DNA of 64,000 bases from Gracilimonas sp. (lineage in GTDB: Bacteria; Bacteroidota; Rhodothermia; Balneolales; Balneolaceae). The stretch lies in NCBI RefSeq assembly GCF_040218225.1, contig NZ_JAVJQO010000006.1, forward strand, positions 434,001 to 498,000. The letters are read 5' to 3'. Numbering within the stretch: the stretch's first letter is position 1; the number at the start of each line of letters is the position of its first letter. The position numbers and the translations under genes are program-made. Positions 17,191 to 40,316 of the stretch are shown here, one piece after another. The notes below the pieces were generated by a model, which was not told the origin of the DNA, did no database searches, and saw nothing but the letters and a program-made list of their open reading frames with translations.

Positions 17191-17589
17191 CTATTCCACT
17201 TCCAATCCGGAATTTGCCAGAGAACCGAAACCACCAATGTTAAACACGTTTTCGAAACCCTGTTCTTTCATGAGCTTGGTAGCTTGTCCGCTTCGGTTAC
17301 CTGACCGGCAGTACAAGTAATAGGTTTTACTTTTATCCAAACTATCCAGCTTAGATTGAAATTCTCCGTTTAGCACATCAAAGTTATGGGTTGCTAATGC
17401 AAGGTGACCGCTGTTGAACTCATCTTTTGTTCGAACATCAATAACCACTCCGGGAGTTTCCTGATGCTTTTGCTTGAAAGATTCAGGGTTCAGGGTCGAA
17501 CTTGCTGAACCACCTTTTTTTGAATTGAAGGCAAAGAAAAGTACTGATGCAAGAGCCAATACTGCGATAATTGTGATAATAGTTTTCAT
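17191..17589 (-). CDS. Membrane-anchored/periplasmic single-domain rhodanese
   Basis: A 132-residue sulfurtransferase that carries sulfane sulfur on a Cys. Residues 1-20 (MKTIITIIAVLALASVLFFA) form a signal anchor; residues ~35-130 are one rhodanese domain with GVVIDVRTKDEFNSGHLALA and the active-site loop YLYCRSGNRSGQA, whose Cys and six-residue loop are intact. It is the last gene of a five-gene sulfur operon, 18 bp after the TauE/SafE gene. It probably handles thiosulfate or persulfide outside the inner membrane. Confidence 0.9.
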   Translation of the reverse strand: MKTIITIIAVLALASVLFFAFNSKKGGSASSTLNPESFKQKHQETPGVVIDVRTKDEFNSGHLALATHNFDVLNGEFQSKLDSLDKSKTYYLYCRSGNRSGQATKLMKEQGFENVFNIGGFGSLANSGLEVE

Positions 17590-17607: not shown

Positions 17608-18360
17608 TTAAAAGCTCGAGTAAATAATGTAAGCACCCATCACCATCAGAAAATACCCAAAACCTGTTTTAAGCTGCTTCTGAGGAACTTTCTGGCTGAT
17701 CTTGTTTCCTACAAAACTACCGGCTATTCCAATCAGACTGAATACACCTATCAGATGCCAGTTCATCTCAAATCCTTCCAGTCTTAAAACGTCGATGTAC
17801 TTATAAAACCCAAGGATGCTTTTCAGGGTGATAATCAGCAAACTTGTTCCAACGGCAACTCTCATCGAAAGCCCGCCAATAAGTACAAGAGCGGGTATAA
17901 TCAAAAAGCCGCCGCCAACACCAACCAAGCCTGTCAAAACCCCGACAACCAGTCCTTCGATCATCAAAATCCATTTTGGAATCGAAGGGGTTTTCTGAGT
18001 AGGGTTTTTGGCTTTTTCCCGAACCATCATATAGGCAGCAATGATCATTACTGCAGCAAAAATCATTAGCTGGGTGTTGCCTGAGATATACTGGGAAAGA
18101 GAAGCTCCGCCATAGGTGCCGATCATACCGGGAATTCCAAAGAAAACCAGGCTAATCCAGTGAACTTCCTTTTTAATAACATACGGCAATGAGCCCACAA
18201 AACTGATTGCGGCGACAATGCCCAGCGATTCAGCTATAGCCAGCTTCTCGGGTTCACCAACCAGATAAATTAATACCGGTACCGTGAGAATAGAGCCTCC
18301 CGAACCGAGCAAGCCCAATGAGATTCCAATAAGTAAAGCCCCGCACCAGGCTAACCACAT
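17608..18360 (-). CDS. TauE/SafE family sulfite/organosulfonate exporter
   Basis: A 250-residue membrane protein with about eight helices and two copies of the family half-repeat. LGLLGSGGSILTVPVLIYL in the first half and GLVGVGGGFLIIPALVLIGG in the second are the paired Gly-rich motifs of TauE/SafE (DUF81). In sulfide-oxidation gene groups this protein is thought to export sulfite or thiosulfate made by the persulfide dioxygenase. Its ATG shares one base with the stop of the dioxygenase-like gene (TAATG), so the two are translationally coupled. The exported anion is inferred from context. Confidence 0.9.
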   Translation of the reverse strand: MWLAWCGALLIGISLGLLGSGGSILTVPVLIYLVGEPEKLAIAESLGIVAAISFVGSLPYVIKKEVHWISLVFFGIPGMIGTYGGASLSQYISGNTQLMIFAAVMIIAAYMMVREKAKNPTQKTPSIPKWILMIEGLVVGVLTGLVGVGGGFLIIPALVLIGGLSMRVAVGTSLLIITLKSILGFYKYIDVLRLEGFEMNWHLIGVFSLIGIAGSFVGNKISQKVPQKQLKTGFGYFLMVMGAYIIYSSF

Positions 18361-19790
18361 TATTTAACCTCTGCAGTTGTCCAGTTATTATTCTCTAACC
18401 AAGGCTCAACCATATCATCGATGTATTTCACGGCAAAGTCTGCCCGCTCCAGCATAGCTGATGCAGCCGATGCTCTTGCTCCCGATTTACAATGAACCAT
18501 TATAGGTTTGTCTTTGGGAACTTCTTCAAGACGATCTAACAGTCGGGTATGTGCAATATTCATCGCTTCAGGATGATGCCCTTCATCGTATTCTGATTTC
18601 TTCCGAACATCCAGCAGGTTTGCCGCTCCGGCAGCCAGATACTCTTCCGCTTTCTCAAAGTCGATAGTCTCTGTGGTAAAAAGCTCGCCGCCTTTTTCAG
18701 CAAATTCCTGAAGCTGTTCCGGCGTAGCATATCCTTTTATGTTATCAAGGCCTATTCGAACCAGATCCTTAACAGCTTCTTCAACCTTATCCTGTTCAAT
18801 GATCAGGTAGATATCTTCATCCTCATTCACATAAGAACCTGCAATAGTGTTGAACTGCTTGTTCATTGGGGATAGCAAGGCTCCCTGAATGTGCCTGTTC
18901 ATAAACTGTGTTCGGTTGCGGGTATCTACAATGACCGCATTACTCAAACGAACGTCTCCAATCATTTTCTCAATAGAAATGTGCTCGGGATGAGGGATTT
19001 CTCCCAGCACTTTCGGGCCTTTTTTATTATCCCTTTTCATTCGTGCGAAGTATAAGGGTGGCTCCGGCTGACCTTCCAGAATGTAGTCCAGAAACTCCTG
19101 CTCACTTATAGCTGCGCGGATTGAACCATTAAAGCGCTGCTCATATCCCACAGTTGATTCCGGTACGGCCCCCAATGCTTTTCCGCAAGCACTTCCGGCA
19201 CCATGTCCCGGCCAAAGCTGCAAATACTCCGGCATCTCTTTAAACTTTTGTAAGGATTGATAAAGAACCTTTGCCGAGCTTTTCATGGCTCCTTTCTGAC
19301 CTGCAGCTGATTCCAGTAAATCAGGCCGGCCAACATCACCTACAAAAACAAAGTCGCCAGACAGAATTCCCATAGGCTCGTCCGTAGCCGCTCCATCAGT
19401 AACTAAATAGCTTACATGCTCAGGGGTATGTCCTGGACTGTAAACTGTAGTGAATTTGATATTTCCAATGGAAAACTCATCACCGTCCTTGAGTAACTGA
19501 TAATCATAATCACTTCCGGCCAGCCACTCATATTTCCAGTCTTTATCTCCCTCATCAGAGGCATAAACTTTGAGGCCCTGCTCCGCAAGTTCCCTTAAAC
19601 CGGATAAATAGTCGGCATGAATATGCGTTTCTGCTGCGGCTACTAATTTCAAATTGTTTTTGATAGCCAGTTCCTTGTAGCGATCCACATCACGCATGGG
19701 ATCAATAACAATGGCTTCGCCTGTAGCCTGGCACCCAATCAGGTAGGCGTATTGTGCTAATTTCTCTTCAAATATTTGCTGAAAAAACAT
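18360..19790 (-). CDS. MBL-fold persulfide dioxygenase-like protein with two rhodanese domains (CstB/BlhA-like)
   Basis: A 476-residue cytosolic protein: metallo-beta-lactamase domain (1-~240), then two rhodanese domains. Metal ligands expected for a mononuclear-iron persulfide dioxygenase are present: His56 in ETHIHADYLSG, His121 in SPGHTPEH and Asp146 in SGDFVFVGD. The HxHxDH motif ends in Tyr61, as in CstB-type proteins, so a binuclear zinc site is unlikely. The first rhodanese (VIVDTRNRTQF, then LIIEQD) lacks a catalytic Cys; the second has CKSGARASAASAM and should be active. It likely oxidises glutathione- or other thiol-persulfides to sulfite with sulfur transfer to form thiosulfate. 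It is the third gene of the sulfur operon. Confidence 0.92.
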   Translation of the reverse strand: MFFQQIFEEKLAQYAYLIGCQATGEAIVIDPMRDVDRYKELAIKNNLKLVAAAETHIHADYLSGLRELAEQGLKVYASDEGDKDWKYEWLAGSDYDYQLLKDGDEFSIGNIKFTTVYSPGHTPEHVSYLVTDGAATDEPMGILSGDFVFVGDVGRPDLLESAAGQKGAMKSSAKVLYQSLQKFKEMPEYLQLWPGHGAGSACGKALGAVPESTVGYEQRFNGSIRAAISEQEFLDYILEGQPEPPLYFARMKRDNKKGPKVLGEIPHPEHISIEKMIGDVRLSNAVIVDTRNRTQFMNRHIQGALLSPMNKQFNTIAGSYVNEDEDIYLIIEQDKVEEAVKDLVRIGLDNIKGYATPEQLQEFAEKGGELFTTETIDFEKAEEYLAAGAANLLDVRKKSEYDEGHHPEAMNIAHTRLLDRLEEVPKDKPIMVHCKSGARASAASAMLERADFAVKYIDDMVEPWLENNNWTTAEVK

Positions 19791-19805: not shown

Positions 19806-20213
19806 TTAGTGAGGCAGATTTGGTTTCAGGTATCCGTACGCTAATGCGCCAAAGATAGCACTTAAGGTTGGGATCAGAAATATTAAATATCCGCTCCCTA
19901 TCAAAGCATACATAGGGCCCGGACAAGCACCGGTGAGCCCCCAGCCAAGGCCAAATATCGTTCCGCCTATGATGTAGTTTTTAGTTTTAGAATTATCTTT
20001 TTCTTTGATGGTTATCGGATCTCCGTTTACATCCTTCACGTTCCATTTCTTAATCATTAAGGTGGCAATCATTCCAACAACCACAGCCAAGCCGATAATG
20101 CCGTACATGTGAATGGAATCGAAACGAAACATTTCCTGAATTCTGAACCAGGAAACTACTTCCGATTTCACCAAAATAAACCCAAATACAATTCCTGATA
20201 AAATAAATCTCAT
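19806..20213 (-). CDS. YeeE/YedE-type sulfur transport half-protein (DUF6691-like)
   Basis: A 135-residue membrane protein with about four helices. GLGWGLTGACPGPMYALIGSG carries the Cys-Pro motif used by YeeE/TsuA to pass thiosulfate or sulfane sulfur across the membrane. It is one of two adjacent half-size proteins that together equal one full YeeE; the other half lies 10 bp upstream. Placement just before the persulfide dioxygenase suggests delivery of imported sulfur to that enzyme or the reverse route. Confidence 0.87.
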   Translation of the reverse strand: MRFILSGIVFGFILVKSEVVSWFRIQEMFRFDSIHMYGIIGLAVVVGMIATLMIKKWNVKDVNGDPITIKEKDNSKTKNYIIGGTIFGLGWGLTGACPGPMYALIGSGYLIFLIPTLSAIFGALAYGYLKPNLPH

Positions 20214-20223
20214 AATTACCTGC

Positions 20224-20787
20224 TTAATTTAAAATGAGTGGCAGAATGGCATAGGTAGTGATCAACCCGCCTACAAAAAATCCGATTACGGCAATCAGAG
20301 AAGCTTTCTGCAGGGTAGCCAATCCGGTAATTGCATGTCCCGATGTGCAACCTCCGGCGTACCGGGCTCCAAAACCTACCATGAATCCGCCCAGAATCAT
20401 GAGTACAAAACCAGCCGGACTTATAATATTTGACCAGTTAAAAACCTCAAGGGGTATCAGGCTGGTGAAGTTACTTATTCCCAATTCCGTCAACTCTGAT
20501 TTTGTTGCTTCTGAAATCTGAACTGCATAATCCGGAGCATTCGTGAATCCTGCAATTACACCTCCAATTAAAACTCCTGCCACTAACTTCAGATTCCACG
20601 ATCCTTCTTTGATCCAGTCGTAGTTGAAATACTCTACTTTTGAGGGAACCATAGAGGCACAGGCATGCCTGAAGCTGGAAGAAATTCCAAAGGTTTTATT
20701 TCCAATAACCCATAGCAGCGGAAGCATTAACCCAATGAGCGGACCAGCCACATACCATGGTATAGGTTGAGTGATGAATTCTGTCAT
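20224..20787 (-). CDS. YeeE/YedE-type sulfur transport half-protein
   Basis: A 187-residue membrane protein with about five helices and the conserved MVGFGARYAGGCTSGHAITG motif, whose Cys is the sulfur-relay residue of the YeeE family. With the neighbouring 135-residue partner it forms a split version of the ~350-residue YeeE thiosulfate transporter. It is the first gene of the sulfur operon and is divergent from a GntR regulator. The palindromic site at 20848-20869 lies 60 bp before its start codon. Confidence 0.9.
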   Translation of the reverse strand: MTEFITQPIPWYVAGPLIGLMLPLLWVIGNKTFGISSSFRHACASMVPSKVEYFNYDWIKEGSWNLKLVAGVLIGGVIAGFTNAPDYAVQISEATKSELTELGISNFTSLIPLEVFNWSNIISPAGFVLMILGGFMVGFGARYAGGCTSGHAITGLATLQKASLIAVIGFFVGGLITTYAILPLILN

Positions 20788-20842
20788 TAAAATATGTTTT
20801 GATGAATGTCTTTTTGATTCGTGTCAATGATAGGAAGCATAT

Positions 20843-20878
20843 TGTATTTGTTACAACATGTTATAACAAGTATATTTC
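20843..20878. promoter_or_regulatory. Divergent promoters overlapping one GntR-type operator
   Basis: Positions 20848-20869 form a 22-bp palindrome (TTGTTA-N10-TAACAA, 10 of 11 base pairs matching, centre ACATGT). Towards the regulator gene, TTTG (20847-20850) and TATATTTC (20871-20878) are 20 bp apart, close to the Bacteroidota TTTG-N19-TAnnTTTG pattern. On the other strand a matching TTG and TACAATAT have the same spacing towards the sulfur operon. The operator therefore fills the spacer of both promoters, and bound protein should block both. The palindrome is seen; the promoters and the regulator assignment are inferred. Confidence 0.7.
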
Positions 20879-20907: not shown

Positions 20908-21693
20908 ATGTCCGATTTTAATTCAAAGCATGAAAAAGTAGCTGCCAAGCTCAGGAATGAAATTACCGGAACGGAGTATGAACCGGGTGATCAGCTTCCC
21001 TCTGAAAAAAGACTATGTGATTATTTCAAAGTAAGTCGTGTTACCGTTCGGCATGCGTTGCAAACCCTGGAAAATGAGCGGTTGATATATCGTAAGCAGG
21101 GGCTTGGCGCTTTTGTTGCTGATACCACATTGAATAGCGGGCTGGTTCAGCTAACCGATTTTTCTGAGGATATGAAGAAAGCCGGATTGAAAAGCAGTTC
21201 CGGTCTTATTTCTCTTGATAAAGTAGAGCCGATCAAAGAAGTAAATGAAATCCTGCAATTACGCCCTGATATGAAGCTCATCAGGATTGACCGAATTCGG
21301 TTCGCCAACGGGAACCCGGTAGCTTTTGATATAACCTGGTTGCCGCCGGGTTATGGCCAGCTTTTATTTGATGAAGATTTAACAACCCAAACCATTTATG
21401 ATGTGCTGGAAGATAAATATGAAATCCCCATACAAGGGGGCAGCTACAGAATCACAGCAAAAAATGCAGATGATTATATCGCCAAACATCTTGGTATTGC
21501 TCCGGAGTCTGCTGTCCTCGAAATAGACCGCTGTTCCAGAACCACGGGAAATAAGAAAGTCTATTTTCAGAAAAGATATTACAATCCTTCCCATGTCTCG
21601 TATGTACTAGAGCTTTCCCGAAACGATAATGAAAGCATGTCATCTAAAGATGGTTTACCTCTAAAAGAATTCTCTCCTTCATTTGCTAAATAG
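20908..21693 (+). CDS. GntR family regulator, HutC/UTRA subgroup
   Basis: About 261 residues from the ATG at 20908. The N-terminal winged helix (~1-75) contains EPGDQLPSEKRLCDYFKVSR followed by VTVRHALQTLENERLIYRKQG, the GntR signature, and the rest is a UTRA effector-binding domain (LIRIDRIRFANGNPVAFD, ITAKNADDYIAKHLGI). The frame extends upstream to a GTG at 20821, but that stretch contains the operator and promoter and encodes an atypical hydrophobic leader, so I reject it. It is divergent from the sulfur operon and upstream of the M16 peptidases. UTRA domains usually sense sugars, amino acids or similar small metabolites; a sulfur-linked ligand would be unusual. Confidence 0.92.
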   Translation: MSDFNSKHEKVAAKLRNEITGTEYEPGDQLPSEKRLCDYFKVSRVTVRHALQTLENERLIYRKQGLGAFVADTTLNSGLVQLTDFSEDMKKAGLKSSSGLISLDKVEPIKEVNEILQLRPDMKLIRIDRIRFANGNPVAFDITWLPPGYGQLLFDEDLTTQTIYDVLEDKYEIPIQGGSYRITAKNADDYIAKHLGIAPESAVLEIDRCSRTTGNKKVYFQKRYYNPSHVSYVLELSRNDNESMSSKDGLPLKEFSPSFAK

Positions 21694-21750: not shown

Positions 21751-23280
21751 ATGAAAATAACAGAGAAAACTATAGCAACCTCTATACTGATGCTCGTCCT
21801 CGCCTTTTCGTTTTCGGGTGTACAGGCACAGTATCTTGAGGAGTTTGAAGAAAAGGTAACAGAATTTACTCTCGATAACGGACTTACGTTTGTTGTTGTA
21901 GAGCGGCCGGTTGCACCCGTTGTCAGCTTTGCTACTTATGTAAATGTTGGGGGTGTAGATAATCCACTTGGACAATCGGGACTTGCTCATGTTTTTGAGC
22001 ATATGGCTTTTAAAGGCACTCATTACGTAGGCACCAACAACTGGAAAAAAGAAAAGAAAGTACTCCAGGAGCTGGACGCCACTTATCAGAAATGGCTGGA
22101 AGAAAAATATTCCACTGCTCCTGATTCAGCCAAACTGAACAAATTATGGTCTGAATTTGAATCCCTCCAGGAAGAAGCCGCTCAGTATGTGGTAAACAAT
22201 GAGTTTTCGGAAATAGTAAACCGCAATGGAGGAACTGGAATGAACGCTACAACCAGTGCCGACCGAACCAATTATTATTACAGTTTACCGGAAAATCGGA
22301 TAGAGCTTTGGTTCAGCCTCGAATCTGATCGTTTCCTGAATCCTGTATTCCGTGAATTCTACAAAGAGAAAGAAGTTGTCCGGGAAGAACGCCGGTCAAG
22401 CTATGAGTCAAGTCCTGTTGGGAAACTGTATGAGGCGTTTCTGACCACCGCTTATAAAGCTCACCCTTATGGCACTCCCAATATTGGATGGCATTCCGAC
22501 ATCACTGCAACGACCATGGAAGATGCCCGAAAGTTTTATGAGACTTATTACGTGCCCAACAATATTACCATAGCTATTGCAGGTGATGTTGATCCGGATG
22601 AAGTGAGAGATCTTGCTGAAACTTATTTTGGACGACTAAAGAAGGGACCTACCCCTCCGCCCATCTATACGGAAGAACCTGAACAAATTGCTGAAAAAAG
22701 GTTCTCCATTGAGCAACAGTCTCAGCCTTTTCTGCTATTGGGATATCATACGGTTAATGACCAGCACCCTGATCATAATGCACTCAATCTGCTGAGCAAT
22801 ATCTTAGTGGGTGGTCGTACTTCCAAGCTATACAAACGACTGGTCGAAAAAGAACAGGTAGCGCTTGGTTTTCAAAACCTGAATGGCGTTCCCGGAACCA
22901 AATATGAGTCCATGTTTGCATTACTTGCGGTTCCGAACCGAGGCTACGATACCGATACTTTAGAAACAGCAATTTATGAAGAACTGGGTAAGATCAAGAA
23001 TGGAGAAATTAGCCAGGAAGAACTTGACCGTGTTCGAACAAACGCACGAGCAGGTTTGATTCGTGGCCTTGATTCCAATTCTGGCCTTGCTGTTAGACTT
23101 GGTCAGGCCCAATCATTACAAGGTGACTGGAGAAAAGTATTTACCAACCTCGAAGACCTTGAAGCAGTGACAGTTGAAGATATTCAGCGCGTAGCCAAGA
23201 AATATTTAGTTAAAGAAAACCGAACGGTGGGTTCCATTGTGAATGCTCCGGCCAAGGAGGTTGCAGATGCGAATCAATAA
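21751..23280 (+). CDS. M16 family zinc peptidase (catalytic), exported
   Basis: A 509-residue insulinase/pitrilysin-type protease. A signal peptide (ATSILMLVLAFSFSGVQAQ, cleavage after QAQ) places it in the periplasm. The inverted zinc motif HxxEH is present as HVFEHMAFKG near residue 79, and the downstream glutamate ligand lies in the KEVVREERRSS helix. The C-terminal M16 domain has the usual GGRTSKLYKRLVEKEQVALG. Its 3' end overlaps the second M16 gene, which lacks the zinc motif; such pairs act as a heterodimer, with one catalytic and one partner subunit. Confidence 0.93.
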   Translation: MKITEKTIATSILMLVLAFSFSGVQAQYLEEFEEKVTEFTLDNGLTFVVVERPVAPVVSFATYVNVGGVDNPLGQSGLAHVFEHMAFKGTHYVGTNNWKKEKKVLQELDATYQKWLEEKYSTAPDSAKLNKLWSEFESLQEEAAQYVVNNEFSEIVNRNGGTGMNATTSADRTNYYYSLPENRIELWFSLESDRFLNPVFREFYKEKEVVREERRSSYESSPVGKLYEAFLTTAYKAHPYGTPNIGWHSDITATTMEDARKFYETYYVPNNITIAIAGDVDPDEVRDLAETYFGRLKKGPTPPPIYTEEPEQIAEKRFSIEQQSQPFLLLGYHTVNDQHPDHNALNLLSNILVGGRTSKLYKRLVEKEQVALGFQNLNGVPGTKYESMFALLAVPNRGYDTDTLETAIYEELGKIKNGEISQEELDRVRTNARAGLIRGLDSNSGLAVRLGQAQSLQGDWRKVFTNLEDLEAVTVEDIQRVAKKYLVKENRTVGSIVNAPAKEVADANQ

Positions 23281-25396
23281 TCGAATTTCAAAAAGAATGT
23301 ATCCTGGAAAAATGATGACAACGATGAAAAGAATAAGCCTTTTGTGCCTGGCTTTGATGCTAACAAGCTCAGCGCTTTACGCACAAAAGAAGTACGACAA
23401 GATAAAATACCCGGAACTGAACAGTTTTCAGGTTCCTGAGGTAGAAACCTACACTGCCGATAATGGAATCACCTATTATTTACTGGAAGACACCGAGCTT
23501 CCGCTCATTGAACTGCGCGTGAACATAAAAGCCGGTGGCGTTTTAGTACCTGCCGACAAAGAAGGCCTGGCTTCCATTACCGGGACCGTAATCCGTTCGG
23601 GTGGAACTGAATCAATTTCAGCTGATTCCTTAAACGTTCTGCTTGAGAATAAAGCCGCGAGTATTGAAACCGGAATCGGGTTTACTTCTGGCAGCGCCTG
23701 GATGAACGTACTTAAAGAAGACTTTGAGGGAATGCTTCCTATTTTTATAGATCTTCTTACCAATCCTGCTTTTCCTGATGACAAGATTGAACTTGCAAAA
23801 ACGCAGACCAAGAGTAGTATATCCCGGCGAAACGATAACTCACAAAGCGTGGGCGTTCGGGAATTCCAAAAGCTGATTTACGGACCTGAGTCTGTCTACG
23901 CCCGCACTACCGAATATGAGACCATCAATAACATTACCCGGGAAGACATCATCAACTTTCATAAAAACCATTTTGTAGCCGAAAACATGATGGTCGGAGT
24001 TGTAGGTGATTTTGATGCTTCAGAGATGAAGCAAAAACTGGAAGAAGCATTTAGCAATATTCCCTCCGGAGAAGAAACCTCACTTGACTTCCCGGCTGTG
24101 AATTACGAACCCCAAAGCACCATCAACTTTGCAAACAAATCGGATGTGAACCAAAGCTTTATACTGATGGGACACTTGGGTGGGATGCGTGAAAACCCAG
24201 ATTATCCTCAAATCCAGGTAATGAACCGTGTACTTAGCGGTGGTTTTTCAGGCCGATTGATGCAGGTAATCCGAACCGAAATGGGACTCGCTTATTCTGC
24301 TTTTGGACAATATAGTATGAACTCTTTCTATCCCGGCTTTTTCTTCGCAGGGGTATCCACAAAAAGCTCTACAACCGCTGAAGCAATCGCTGCTGTTATT
24401 GAGCAAATTGAACGACTTCAGAACGAACCCATCACCCAGAAAGAGTTGCAGGATACCAAAGATCAGATATTGAATTCATCTGTTTTTGAATACGACAGCT
24501 ATGAGGAAGTACTTAGCCAACAAATGTCTTATGATTATCAGGGACTCCCCAGCAATGCTTTTGATGCCTACATCGAAGGGGTTAAAAACACAACCATCGA
24601 AGATGTTCAGCGTGTAGCTAAGGAATATCTAAACCCAGATTATCTTCAAATTATGGTAGTTGGAAACAAAGAAGAAATTGGAGATCAGCTACAGCAATTC
24701 GGTAATGTTAATGAGATAGACATCTCTATTCCGGAACCGGGTTCAAGTGAACCTGTTGTTGACGGAGATGCGGCCAAAGGACAAGAATGGCTTGATAAAA
24801 TGGCTGCTGCCCTCATTGAATCAGGCAGCGATGTTGTTTCTGTTCAGGAAAAATCTGTGATCACACAAAAAACCCCAATGGGTGATATGGACATACAAAA
24901 CTCTTCCACTACCAACTTTGCGGATTACTCTACCGAGAGAAACCTGAATACCCCACAAGGGCAAATGACCATGACATTCAAGGATGGCAGCGGCTCTATG
25001 CAGATGGCAGGTCAACAGCGCCAGCTTCCGCCACAAATGGCTAAGCCCATGCTAAATGAAATGAAGCGTAATTATTTGTCTATCGCTATCAACCATGAAG
25101 ACATTCAGGCTGAATACCTTGGTGACGAAACTGTGGACGGAGAAGATTATGCGGTTGTAAGAATGACCAATGACCAGGTGAAAGTAACCTTCCTTCTGGA
25201 TCAGGAAACCGGTCTTCCCTATATGAGCCGTTATTCAGAAATGAATCCTCAGACCGGCCAGCGTCAGGAAGCTAAAAGCATATACTCCGACTGGACAAAA
25301 GCCGGGGGAGTTACTTATGCTTACTCAGTTGTGACCTACGTTGATGATCAGGTAGCCGCTGAGCTTACTGTTGAAAGTCATTCTATTCCGGAATAA
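23267..25396 (+). CDS. M16 family protein lacking the zinc motif, with extra C-terminal domain
   Basis: About 709 residues. The start is taken as ATG 23267 because a full AAGGAGG lies six bases upstream inside the end of the previous gene; later ATG codons (23312-23324) would give a shorter signal peptide ending ALYAQ. Two M16 domains (~60-270 and ~280-490) follow, but the HxxEH position reads GLASITGTVIRSG, so this is the non-catalytic partner. Residues ~520-709 form an added beta-rich region (KGQEWLDKMAAALIESGSD, TFLLDQETGLPYMSRYSEM) resembling outer-membrane lipoprotein-sorting folds. A terminator follows at 25420-25456. Confidence 0.9.
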   Translation: MRINNRISKRMYPGKMMTTMKRISLLCLALMLTSSALYAQKKYDKIKYPELNSFQVPEVETYTADNGITYYLLEDTELPLIELRVNIKAGGVLVPADKEGLASITGTVIRSGGTESISADSLNVLLENKAASIETGIGFTSGSAWMNVLKEDFEGMLPIFIDLLTNPAFPDDKIELAKTQTKSSISRRNDNSQSVGVREFQKLIYGPESVYARTTEYETINNITREDIINFHKNHFVAENMMVGVVGDFDASEMKQKLEEAFSNIPSGEETSLDFPAVNYEPQSTINFANKSDVNQSFILMGHLGGMRENPDYPQIQVMNRVLSGGFSGRLMQVIRTEMGLAYSAFGQYSMNSFYPGFFFAGVSTKSSTTAEAIAAVIEQIERLQNEPITQKELQDTKDQILNSSVFEYDSYEEVLSQQMSYDYQGLPSNAFDAYIEGVKNTTIEDVQRVAKEYLNPDYLQIMVVGNKEEIGDQLQQFGNVNEIDISIPEPGSSEPVVDGDAAKGQEWLDKMAAALIESGSDVVSVQEKSVITQKTPMGDMDIQNSSTTNFADYSTERNLNTPQGQMTMTFKDGSGSMQMAGQQRQLPPQMAKPMLNEMKRNYLSIAINHEDIQAEYLGDETVDGEDYAVVRMTNDQVKVTFLLDQETGLPYMSRYSEMNPQTGQRQEAKSIYSDWTKAGGVTYAYSVVTYVDDQVAAELTVESHSIPE

Positions 25397-39179: not shown

Positions 39180-40316
39180 ATGAGTTTTAAGAGAGCTTTT
39201 TATGCAATGATGATTGGAGGGTTCCTTTTTATGGGAACCTCCAATTCTTTTGCCCAAGACTATTACCTATACGTTGCTGCTGAATCCGATGATGAAGTTC
39301 ATTTGGTTCACTTCAATGCCGAAACTCAAAAAGGTGAAATTTCAGAAACGATCCGCGTGGGAACCTGGCCCCAGGAAAATGAAGGGCCACATGGACTCAC
39401 TATTTCACCGGATGGGAGCCACTGGTTTGTGAGCATAGCACACGGTATGCCCTATGGCAAACTCTGGAAGTTTGAAACCGGAACCAACGAATTTGTTGGT
39501 GAAGTTGAATTAGGCATGTTTCCGGCAAGTATGGATATCTCTGCAAGCACAGGGTTATTGTATGTAGTGAATTTCAATCTGCATGGCGATATGGAACCAA
39601 GTACCGTTTCTGTTGTTGAGCCCGAATCCATGATACGTCTTGGAGACATTAAAACCGGAATTATGCCCCACGGTTCACGTATAAATAGTTCAGGAACCCG
39701 GCAGTATCATGTTTCCATGATGACTGACGAACTGATGGAAATCAATACGGAAACGCTGGAAGTTCAAAGACGGCTCAAGTTATCGGAAAAAGATATGAGC
39801 AAAGAAATGTCAGCCAGTACTGATCATTCGGGTATGGATCATTCCGGAATGAACCATGGTGAGATGAAGCATAAACCAGTTGAAAAACCAACCTGGGCCG
39901 ATCCTCATCCTTCAAAACCTTTGGTTTATGTTGCTGCCAATGGCTCCAACGAAGTGTTGGAAATAGACACTAAAAATTGGAAAGTAACCAAGCGATGGGA
40001 AACCGGGAAAGCACCGTACAATCTTGAAGTGAGCCATGATGGTAAGCTGTTGGTTGTAACTTACAAAGGGGAAGGCGCTACGGGTATTTGGGATCTGGAT
40101 TCAGGAAAAGAATTAGCCAAAATCAAAAATAGCCGGAAAGTAAGTCACGGCGTGGCCATTTCAGCCGATAGTAAGTATGCTTTCATCTCGGTTGAAGGAA
40201 TAGGCGGAGAACCCGGTTCGGTTGATATCATTAACCTTGAATCTTTGAAACGAGTTGATGTCGTTGAAACCAGCAAGCAAGCTGGCGGTATTATTTTCTG
40301 GAAACAGGAAGGTTAG
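39180..40316 (+). CDS. Exported YncE-like beta-propeller with His/Met-rich insert
   Basis: A 378-residue exported protein (signal ends NSFAQ). Seven-blade YncE/cytochrome-d1-like propeller repeats are visible as HGLTISPDGSHWFVSIA, MDISASTGLLYVVNFN, LEVSHDGKLLVVTYKG and HGVAISADSKYAFISVEG. Between blades, around residues 212-232, sits DHSGMDHSGMNHGEMKH, a His/Met-rich stretch like those of copper-handling proteins. The neighbour upstream is a LVIVD propeller, and a terminator at 40341-40372 ends the pair. A copper or other metal role is inferred from the insert only. Confidence 0.86.
   Translation: MSFKRAFYAMMIGGFLFMGTSNSFAQDYYLYVAAESDDEVHLVHFNAETQKGEISETIRVGTWPQENEGPHGLTISPDGSHWFVSIAHGMPYGKLWKFETGTNEFVGEVELGMFPASMDISASTGLLYVVNFNLHGDMEPSTVSVVEPESMIRLGDIKTGIMPHGSRINSSGTRQYHVSMMTDELMEINTETLEVQRRLKLSEKDMSKEMSASTDHSGMDHSGMNHGEMKHKPVEKPTWADPHPSKPLVYVAANGSNEVLEIDTKNWKVTKRWETGKAPYNLEVSHDGKLLVVTYKGEGATGIWDLDSGKELAKIKNSRKVSHGVAISADSKYAFISVEGIGGEPGSVDIINLESLKRVDVVETSKQAGGIIFWKQEG

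Follow-up and report, generated by a model that had tools for sequence, protein, structure and literature searches.

The window, a stretch of 64,000 nucleotides from the 3.54 Mb genome of a Gracilimonas sp. (98.56% complete), contains a YeeE operon and a gntR gene that diverge from positions 20787 and 20908, respectively, with a candidate operator between them, which is the layout of a divergon (Table 1). The GntR winged helix and the UTRA domain encoded by gntR both score above the cut-offs of their Pfam models, the domain content expected of the HutC subfamily. The thiosulfate transporter is TsuA, whose NCBIfam model is matched in part by both YeeE/YedE-type proteins; here the TsuA-like protein is split over two genes (19806-20787), with the C-terminal part first, followed by the N-terminal part. 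Further along the operon, the metallo-beta-lactamase fold and rhodanese protein is, in our reading of its domains, probably persulfide-dioxygenase-like. On the 3' side of gntR, two M16-type peptidase-like genes are found in the same direction (21751-25396; the Pfam run covered the first), and a relative of the first follows gntR in 14 of 18 closely related loci. This first gene may share the gntR promoter.

Table 1. Genes, candidate operator sites and predicted promoter boxes at the gntR/sulfur locus (positions in the window).
Feature	Position	Strand	Basis
Rhodanese-domain protein	17191..17589	-	Pfam
TauE/SafE-type exporter	17608..18360	-	Pfam
Metallo-beta-lactamase fold and rhodanese protein	18360..19790	-	Pfam; all NCBIfam matches below cut-off
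YeeE/YedE-type sulfur transport protein, similar to the N-terminal part of TsuA	19806..20213	-	Pfam Sulf_transp; NCBIfam TsuA 28.7 bits, below cut-off of 400
YeeE/YedE-type sulfur transport protein, similar to the C-terminal half of TsuA	20224..20787	-	Pfam Sulf_transp; NCBIfam TsuA 35.7 bits, below cut-off of 400
Sulfur operon -10 region TATCATTG, spacer 18 (predicted)	20825..20832	-	TAnnnT 18/18; TAnnnTTG 16/18
Composite candidate operator, three half-sites 10 bp apart, ATTTGT-N4-ACATGT-N4-ACAAGT	20846..20871	.	Gapless alignment of 18 orthologous regions
Left 16-bp GT-N4-AC site (ATTTGT TACA ACATGT), over both predicted -35 elements	20846..20861	.	2 mismatches to ACTTGT-N4-ACAAGT
22-bp palindrome, reinterpreted as outer envelope of the two 16-bp sites	20848..20869	.	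10/11 pairs
gntR promoter -35 TTGTTA (predicted)	20848..20853	+	TTG in 18/18
Sulfur operon promoter -35 TTGTAA (predicted)	20851..20856	-	TTG in 18/18
Right 16-bp GT-N4-AC site (ACATGT TATA ACAAGT), in the spacer of the plus-strand promoter	20856..20871	.	1 mismatch to ACTTGT-N4-ACAAGT
gntR promoter -10 TATATT, spacer 17 (predicted)	20871..20876	+	TAnnnT 13/18; other scanned offsets at most 2
gntR, GntR winged helix and UTRA domain (HutC type), 261 aa	20908..21693	+	Pfam GntR 1.1e-19, UTRA 5.8e-30

Orthologs of gntR were sought in 57 genomes of relatives, 49 of which gave a match at E ≤0.001, and across the phylum in 394 genomes, 73 of which gave a match at E ≤1e-30. The better matches (to about 5e-55) together with L052 and L053, with duplicates removed, make up a set of 90 loci. 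Weaker matches and G030, in which gntR is broken by a stop, lie outside this set, and L031, L048, L049, L050, L051 and L054 (duplicates) as well as L097 (no gntR) were removed before counting. Of the 90 loci, 18 are close, with a GntR identity of 59 percent or more, and the other 72 are more distant; L023, where YeeE is incomplete at the start and there is no site, is counted among the 72 and left out of the 89-row tree. In this tree (quick maximum-likelihood, SH-aLRT only), the close set forms one clade with a support of 99, and the program warned of a long-branch join with L089 and L091. The close orthologs are kin, and a count of 18/18 does not represent 18 independent events.

The longest mechanical open frame of the regulator starts at 20821, a start that the earlier note considered wrong. 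The comparison agrees, as this frame is open across the element in only 4 of the 18 close orthologs, the window included. Downstream of the candidate operator, the window has no in-frame start codon other than the ATG at 20908, the corresponding codon is ATG in 11/18 orthologs, and these observations support 20908 as the probable start of gntR.

The element was originally described as one 22-bp palindrome, TTGTTA-N10-TAACAA, filling the spacers of promoters that face both ways. As a string, the palindrome is present: TTGTTACAACATGTTATAACAA at 20848-20869 forms 10 of 11 pairs, with TTGTTA-N17-TATATT at 20848-20876 on the plus strand and TTGTTA-N17-TACAAT at 20869-20841 on the minus strand. Palindromicity by itself is at about chance level for 64 kb, where 22-mers with at least 10 of 11 pairs occur at a mean of 1.05 per shuffled window (40 dinucleotide shuffles of the whole window), and is unusual within the 120-bp intergenic region, where 10/11 pairs are reached in 6 of 2000 shuffles. 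A second 22-bp palindrome with 10/11 pairs, TGGATCATTCCGGAATGAACCA, lies at 39835-39856. When up to 2 mismatches are allowed, the 6+6 pattern shows no clear enrichment in the window (8 found versus 5.1 expected, with 11 of 100 shuffles reaching 8). The genome search for further copies that the earlier note had proposed, conducted with TTGTNACAACATGTNATAACAA at up to 3 mismatches, returned this site only (control, 0). The element is judged real because it is conserved, being kept in 18/18 close orthologs, and not because it is palindromic.

The distribution of conserved columns differs from that expected of a palindrome with a 10-bp spacer. Among the 18 orthologs, 9 of 10 spacer columns are invariant (20854-20861 and 20863) versus 8 of 12 arm columns, and CAACATGT, which occupies columns 20854-20861 inside the supposed spacer, is identical in all of them. 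In addition, positions 20852-20853 of the left arm vary, whereas their partners 20864-20865 are invariant. The claim of a single 22-bp palindrome is not upheld, given that its spacer is best conserved and that distant orthologs show a 16-bp GT-N4-AC site, of which two imperfect overlapping copies are found here. The element is best read as two overlapping 16-bp sites, 10 bp apart, with ACATGT as their common half. Both sites, exactly 10 bp apart and with at most 3 mismatches each, are found in 18/18 close orthologs, and the perfect 16-bp consensus in 0/18. Column conservation in the close set alone cannot separate half-sites (12 of 18 columns invariant) from N4 spacers (5 of 8), the N4 columns being about as conserved as the half-sites, partly because 20854-20856 double as -35 sequence. 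The two-site reading is preferred because of the consensus in distant relatives, the conservation of the centre and the spacing known for HutC operators. The left arm of L012, L014 and L015 is nearer to the consensus (ACTTGT) and their right arm is weaker (ACAAGA), with a similar arrangement in L034, as if the pair of sites were the unit.

A search of about 0.3 Mb of the Gracilimonas genome (139 upstream regions) yielded no usable general promoter consensus, which leaves conservation as the basis for the promoter boxes. The Bacteroidetes-type promoter motif is TAnnTTTG, which is not enriched in the same 139 regions (15 forward, 14 reverse complement, 11 reversed), and the minus-strand -10 box resembles it in some relatives. 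Of the two promoters put forward earlier, the plus-strand one is supported (TTGTTA-17-TATATT, with the -10 core in 13/18), while the minus-strand one needs a different -10: TAnnnT at the proposed TACAAT is found in the window alone (1/18), and TAnnnT 14 bp further on in 18/18. The -10 of the sulfur operon would be TATCAT itself, at 20832-20827 on the minus strand. In the close set, with offsets counted outward from the left site, the minus-strand TTG and TAnnnT lie at offsets 5 and 29 (each 18/18), and the plus-strand TTG and TAnnnT at offsets 2 (18/18) and 25, the latter core being absent there in 5/18. In distant relatives, a boundary of our choice, 145 bp upstream of gntR, separates operon-side from gntR-side sites. 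Operon-side sites have TTG at offset 7 (22/32) and TAnnnT at offset 30 (22/32), which corresponds to a -35 within the operator and a 17-base spacer, and gntR-side sites have TTG at offset 17 (16/30) and TAnnnT at offset 40 (22/30). The position of the minus-strand box in the window, 29 from the left site versus 30 in distant relatives, provides independent support for the predicted minus-strand promoter. The two predicted -35 elements overlap (20848-20853 on the plus strand and 20856-20851 on the minus strand), and polymerase is thus presumably unable to use both together.

For the distant loci, dyads were counted in the regions upstream of gntR with no motif supplied, and 10 shuffles of single bases within 50-base blocks served as the control. 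The top dyad, ACTTGT-N4-ACAAGT, is exact in 16/20 YeeE-linked loci and in 26/72 distant loci, and occurs at most twice in the block shuffles. At up to 1 mismatch there are 62 sites in 45 of the 72 loci, and some distant loci have one site by the operon and another by gntR. The scanned stretch of 27/72 loci contains no site at this threshold; 23 of these are class-level relatives, and regulators of such relatives may read something else. Extra half-sites are found exactly 10 bp off the distant sites (TTGT in 6/62, ACAA in 4/62), with just one in total over the other flanking offsets scanned. By a loose criterion, 10 distant loci combine a site with a further half-site at a distance of 10 bp, so an older arrangement may have been strengthened into the composite.

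In a scan of 24 hand-chosen genomes with the reversed motif as control, 24 perfect 16-bp sites were found versus 7 in the control, and 20 of the 24 lie at the gntR or target locus. The 4 perfect sites off the gntR locus fall within the control level and were not taken as targets. A perfect site off gntR at L146:3146-3161 lies 63 bases before a gene for a CitMHS/TrkA_C permease (with a weaker match to a Na:sulfate symporter) and could be either a chance occurrence or a further target. In the genome of the window, exact ACWTGT-N4-ACAWGT occurs at the right site only (20856..20871), and the regulator looks dedicated to the gntR/sulfur locus. A wider regulon through the 16-bp motif in the Gracilimonas genome was considered and rejected, since matches at up to 1 mismatch number 18 versus 33 for the reversed control per strand.

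The genes associated with gntR-linked sites are the YeeE pair, a Pyr_redox_2 (Pfam) pyridine-nucleotide-disulfide oxidoreductase, which we read as sulfide:quinone-oxidoreductase-like, and DUF302 together with an outer-membrane efflux protein. In the close loci L004, L011 and L013, the composite is retained and the divergent gene is TolC, DUF302/TolC or rhodanese, not YeeE. A second perfect site is found in the short gap before YeeE in all 4 loci examined in which the oxidoreductase gene is flanked by gntR and the YeeE pair (L151-L154). Together, the target genes in relatives suggest a response to reactive sulfur.

The geometry of the sites is likewise that of the HutC subfamily. The gap between GT and AC is 4 nt in most HutC-subfamily sites by the account in PMC4494728, and 4 nt in both overlapping sites and in the distant consensus. 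The same paper gives GTMTAKAC as the centre of the HutC consensus, together with exceptions (PMC4494728), and neither the right site (GTTATAAC) nor the left site (GTTACAAC) matches this centre. Among the NCBIfam equivalogs for HutC, PhnF and the trehalose repressor, none scores above its cut-off, the best being TIGR02018 with 125.5 bits versus 220. By sequence, the nearest solved structures are NagR/YvoA and DasR, with NagR as the best match. NagR is reported to contact its half-sites at positions 4-7 from the dyad, six nucleotides apart, where Arg48 recognizes one G and Arg38 the one after it (PMC4333415). In a residue comparison of the 18 close rows and 40 hand-chosen of the 72 distant rows, the equivalent of Arg48, R44, is retained in 18/18 and 40/40 (all 58), while the equivalent of Arg38, at position 34, is K in 15/18 and N in 3/18 close rows and N in 33/40 distant rows, which fits the replacement of TGGT by TTGT. 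The present regulator is similar to NagR (YvoA of Bacillus subtilis) and DasR (Streptomyces), GntR/HutC repressors with dre operators, in its domain order, the six-nucleotide gap between half-sites and the equivalent of Arg48. It differs from them in that a dre-type TGGT half-site read by equivalents of both arginines is replaced by TTGT with R44 and mostly K or N at position 34, in its association with sulfur rather than aminosugar genes, and in its composite with a common half-site.

From the sites, their conservation, the promoter-like boxes at fixed spacing and the gene associations, we infer that this GntR binds the composite and represses rather than activates at both promoters, a core reading to which we assign a probability of roughly 75%. 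From a single compressed element, the HutC-type GntR (20908-21693) would repress both its own gene and the sulfur operon that diverges from it. Three half-sites in 10-bp phase would give this element two 16-bp GT-N4-AC sites that overlap. Of these, the left one would lie on two overlapping, back-to-back -35 elements, such that its occupancy would block both promoters, while the right site would fill the spacer up to the gntR -10 and abut the -35 of the operon. The proposal in the earlier note of a GntR-type operator over the divergent promoters of gntR and the sulfur operon thus gains support, as a prediction, from the conserved sites and boxes. Since the left register covers both -35 elements, a single dimer could also switch both promoters, as was suggested there. 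Release of the dimer by a sulfur compound or persulfide would then open both promoters; that the signal may be a sulfur species is suggested by the genes.

How many dimers occupy the element under this core reading is more finely balanced. On the NagR geometry, the central half-site of both registers would be 20857-20860, so one dimer at a time is likelier than two, and a single dimer that takes either of the two registers has about even odds. Cooperative binding of two dimers to both 16-bp sites, on the same helical face with a 10-bp offset, is less likely than not. It would account for the exact 10-bp phase in 18/18 close loci and for the extra half-sites of distant ones, and there is GntR precedent for several dimers in NanR on (GGTATA)3 (PMC8012715), in addition to the site pairs inferred to act jointly in 32 HutC divergons (PMC4494728). 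However, both dimers would need 20857-20860 if they bound as NagR is described to do (PMC4333415), and the cooperativity of NanR is reported to depend on a 32-residue N-terminal extension (PMC8012715), whereas only 8 residues precede the Pfam match here. That a single dimer instead reads the outer palindrome is quite improbable. Its 10/11 pairs and the nearly invariant outer TTGT and ACAA fit such a mode, as does the exact TTGTTA-N10-TAACAA dyad, which close loci contain more often than any other 6-mer dyad (10/18). In the ranking of dyads for distant orthologs, the 16-bp site nevertheless comes first and the outer dyad is not one of the top eight; its GT-to-AC gap would be 14 nt versus the 4 given for most HutC-subfamily sites (PMC4494728), and both the 9/10 invariant spacer columns and the variable 20852-20853 opposite their invariant partners speak against it.

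Two further alternatives question repression or the operator itself. The bound protein might activate the sulfur operon from just upstream of its -35 and repress its own gene only: the centre of the right site (20863.5) lies about 43 bp upstream of the predicted operon start, and distant gntR-side sites often end one base before the -35 TTG (16/30). We consider this improbable, as the -35 TTG lies inside most distant operon-side sites (22/32), a position typical of a repressor, and repression is the activity described for its relatives NagR and DasR. The element might also be conserved only as back-to-back promoter elements in which GntR has no part, given that a large share of it also serves as -35 sequence; the recurrence of the 16-bp dyad in distant relatives, at varied offsets from the promoter boxes and before different genes, and the concentration of perfect copies at the gntR locus (20/24) make this highly improbable.

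The proposed repression by GntR from the composite can be compared with published systems. As in published divergent systems, the regulator and the structural operon are divergent, with double sites and extra half-sites near the main one. The present element differs in that its extra half-site gives rise to another site about as good as the first, and in that every one of the 18 close orthologs examined has the composite. For SoxR and sHdrR of Hyphomicrobium, too, YeeE-type transporters (the YeeE-like SoxT) are described alongside a repressor of sulfur genes; these repressors are of the ArsR type and respond to sulfane sulfur (PMC11582611, PMC12423496), whereas the present regulator is of the GntR/HutC type. 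Among the literature matches listed, in which subscription journals are thinly covered, titles and abstract openings contain no GntR regulator joined to YeeE or sulfide oxidoreductase genes. For a sulfur-linked GntR/HutC regulator from a bacterial group that has received little study, the analysis defines a candidate operator and a set of targets precisely enough to be tested. It further suggests that two separate operators can give way to an overlapping pair with the distance between operon promoter and operator held within one base, and it cautions that the longest palindrome of a promoter need not equal the binding unit of the protein.

A broader proposal, speculative and rather unlikely to hold as a whole, is that this GntR/HutC lineage is a reactive-sulfur sensor of Balneolaceae-type bacteria, in which a persulfide-linked C37/C209 (or C63/C179) would pull the DNA-binding domain off the operator, and that two ancestral operators merged into the two-register element in the Gracilimonas clade, tying the sensor to expression of the transporter. 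Sulfane-sulfur-responsive repressors such as SoxR, BigR and CstR have a conserved reactive cysteine pair. In the present regulators, C37 and C209 are found in 18/18 close rows, where 90 of the 261 GntR columns are invariant in any case; C63 is found in 37/40 and C179 in 24/40 of the hand-chosen distant rows, and no pair is common to both groups. In both groups, the DNA-binding domain and the UTRA domain contribute one cysteine each, and the positions differ between the groups.
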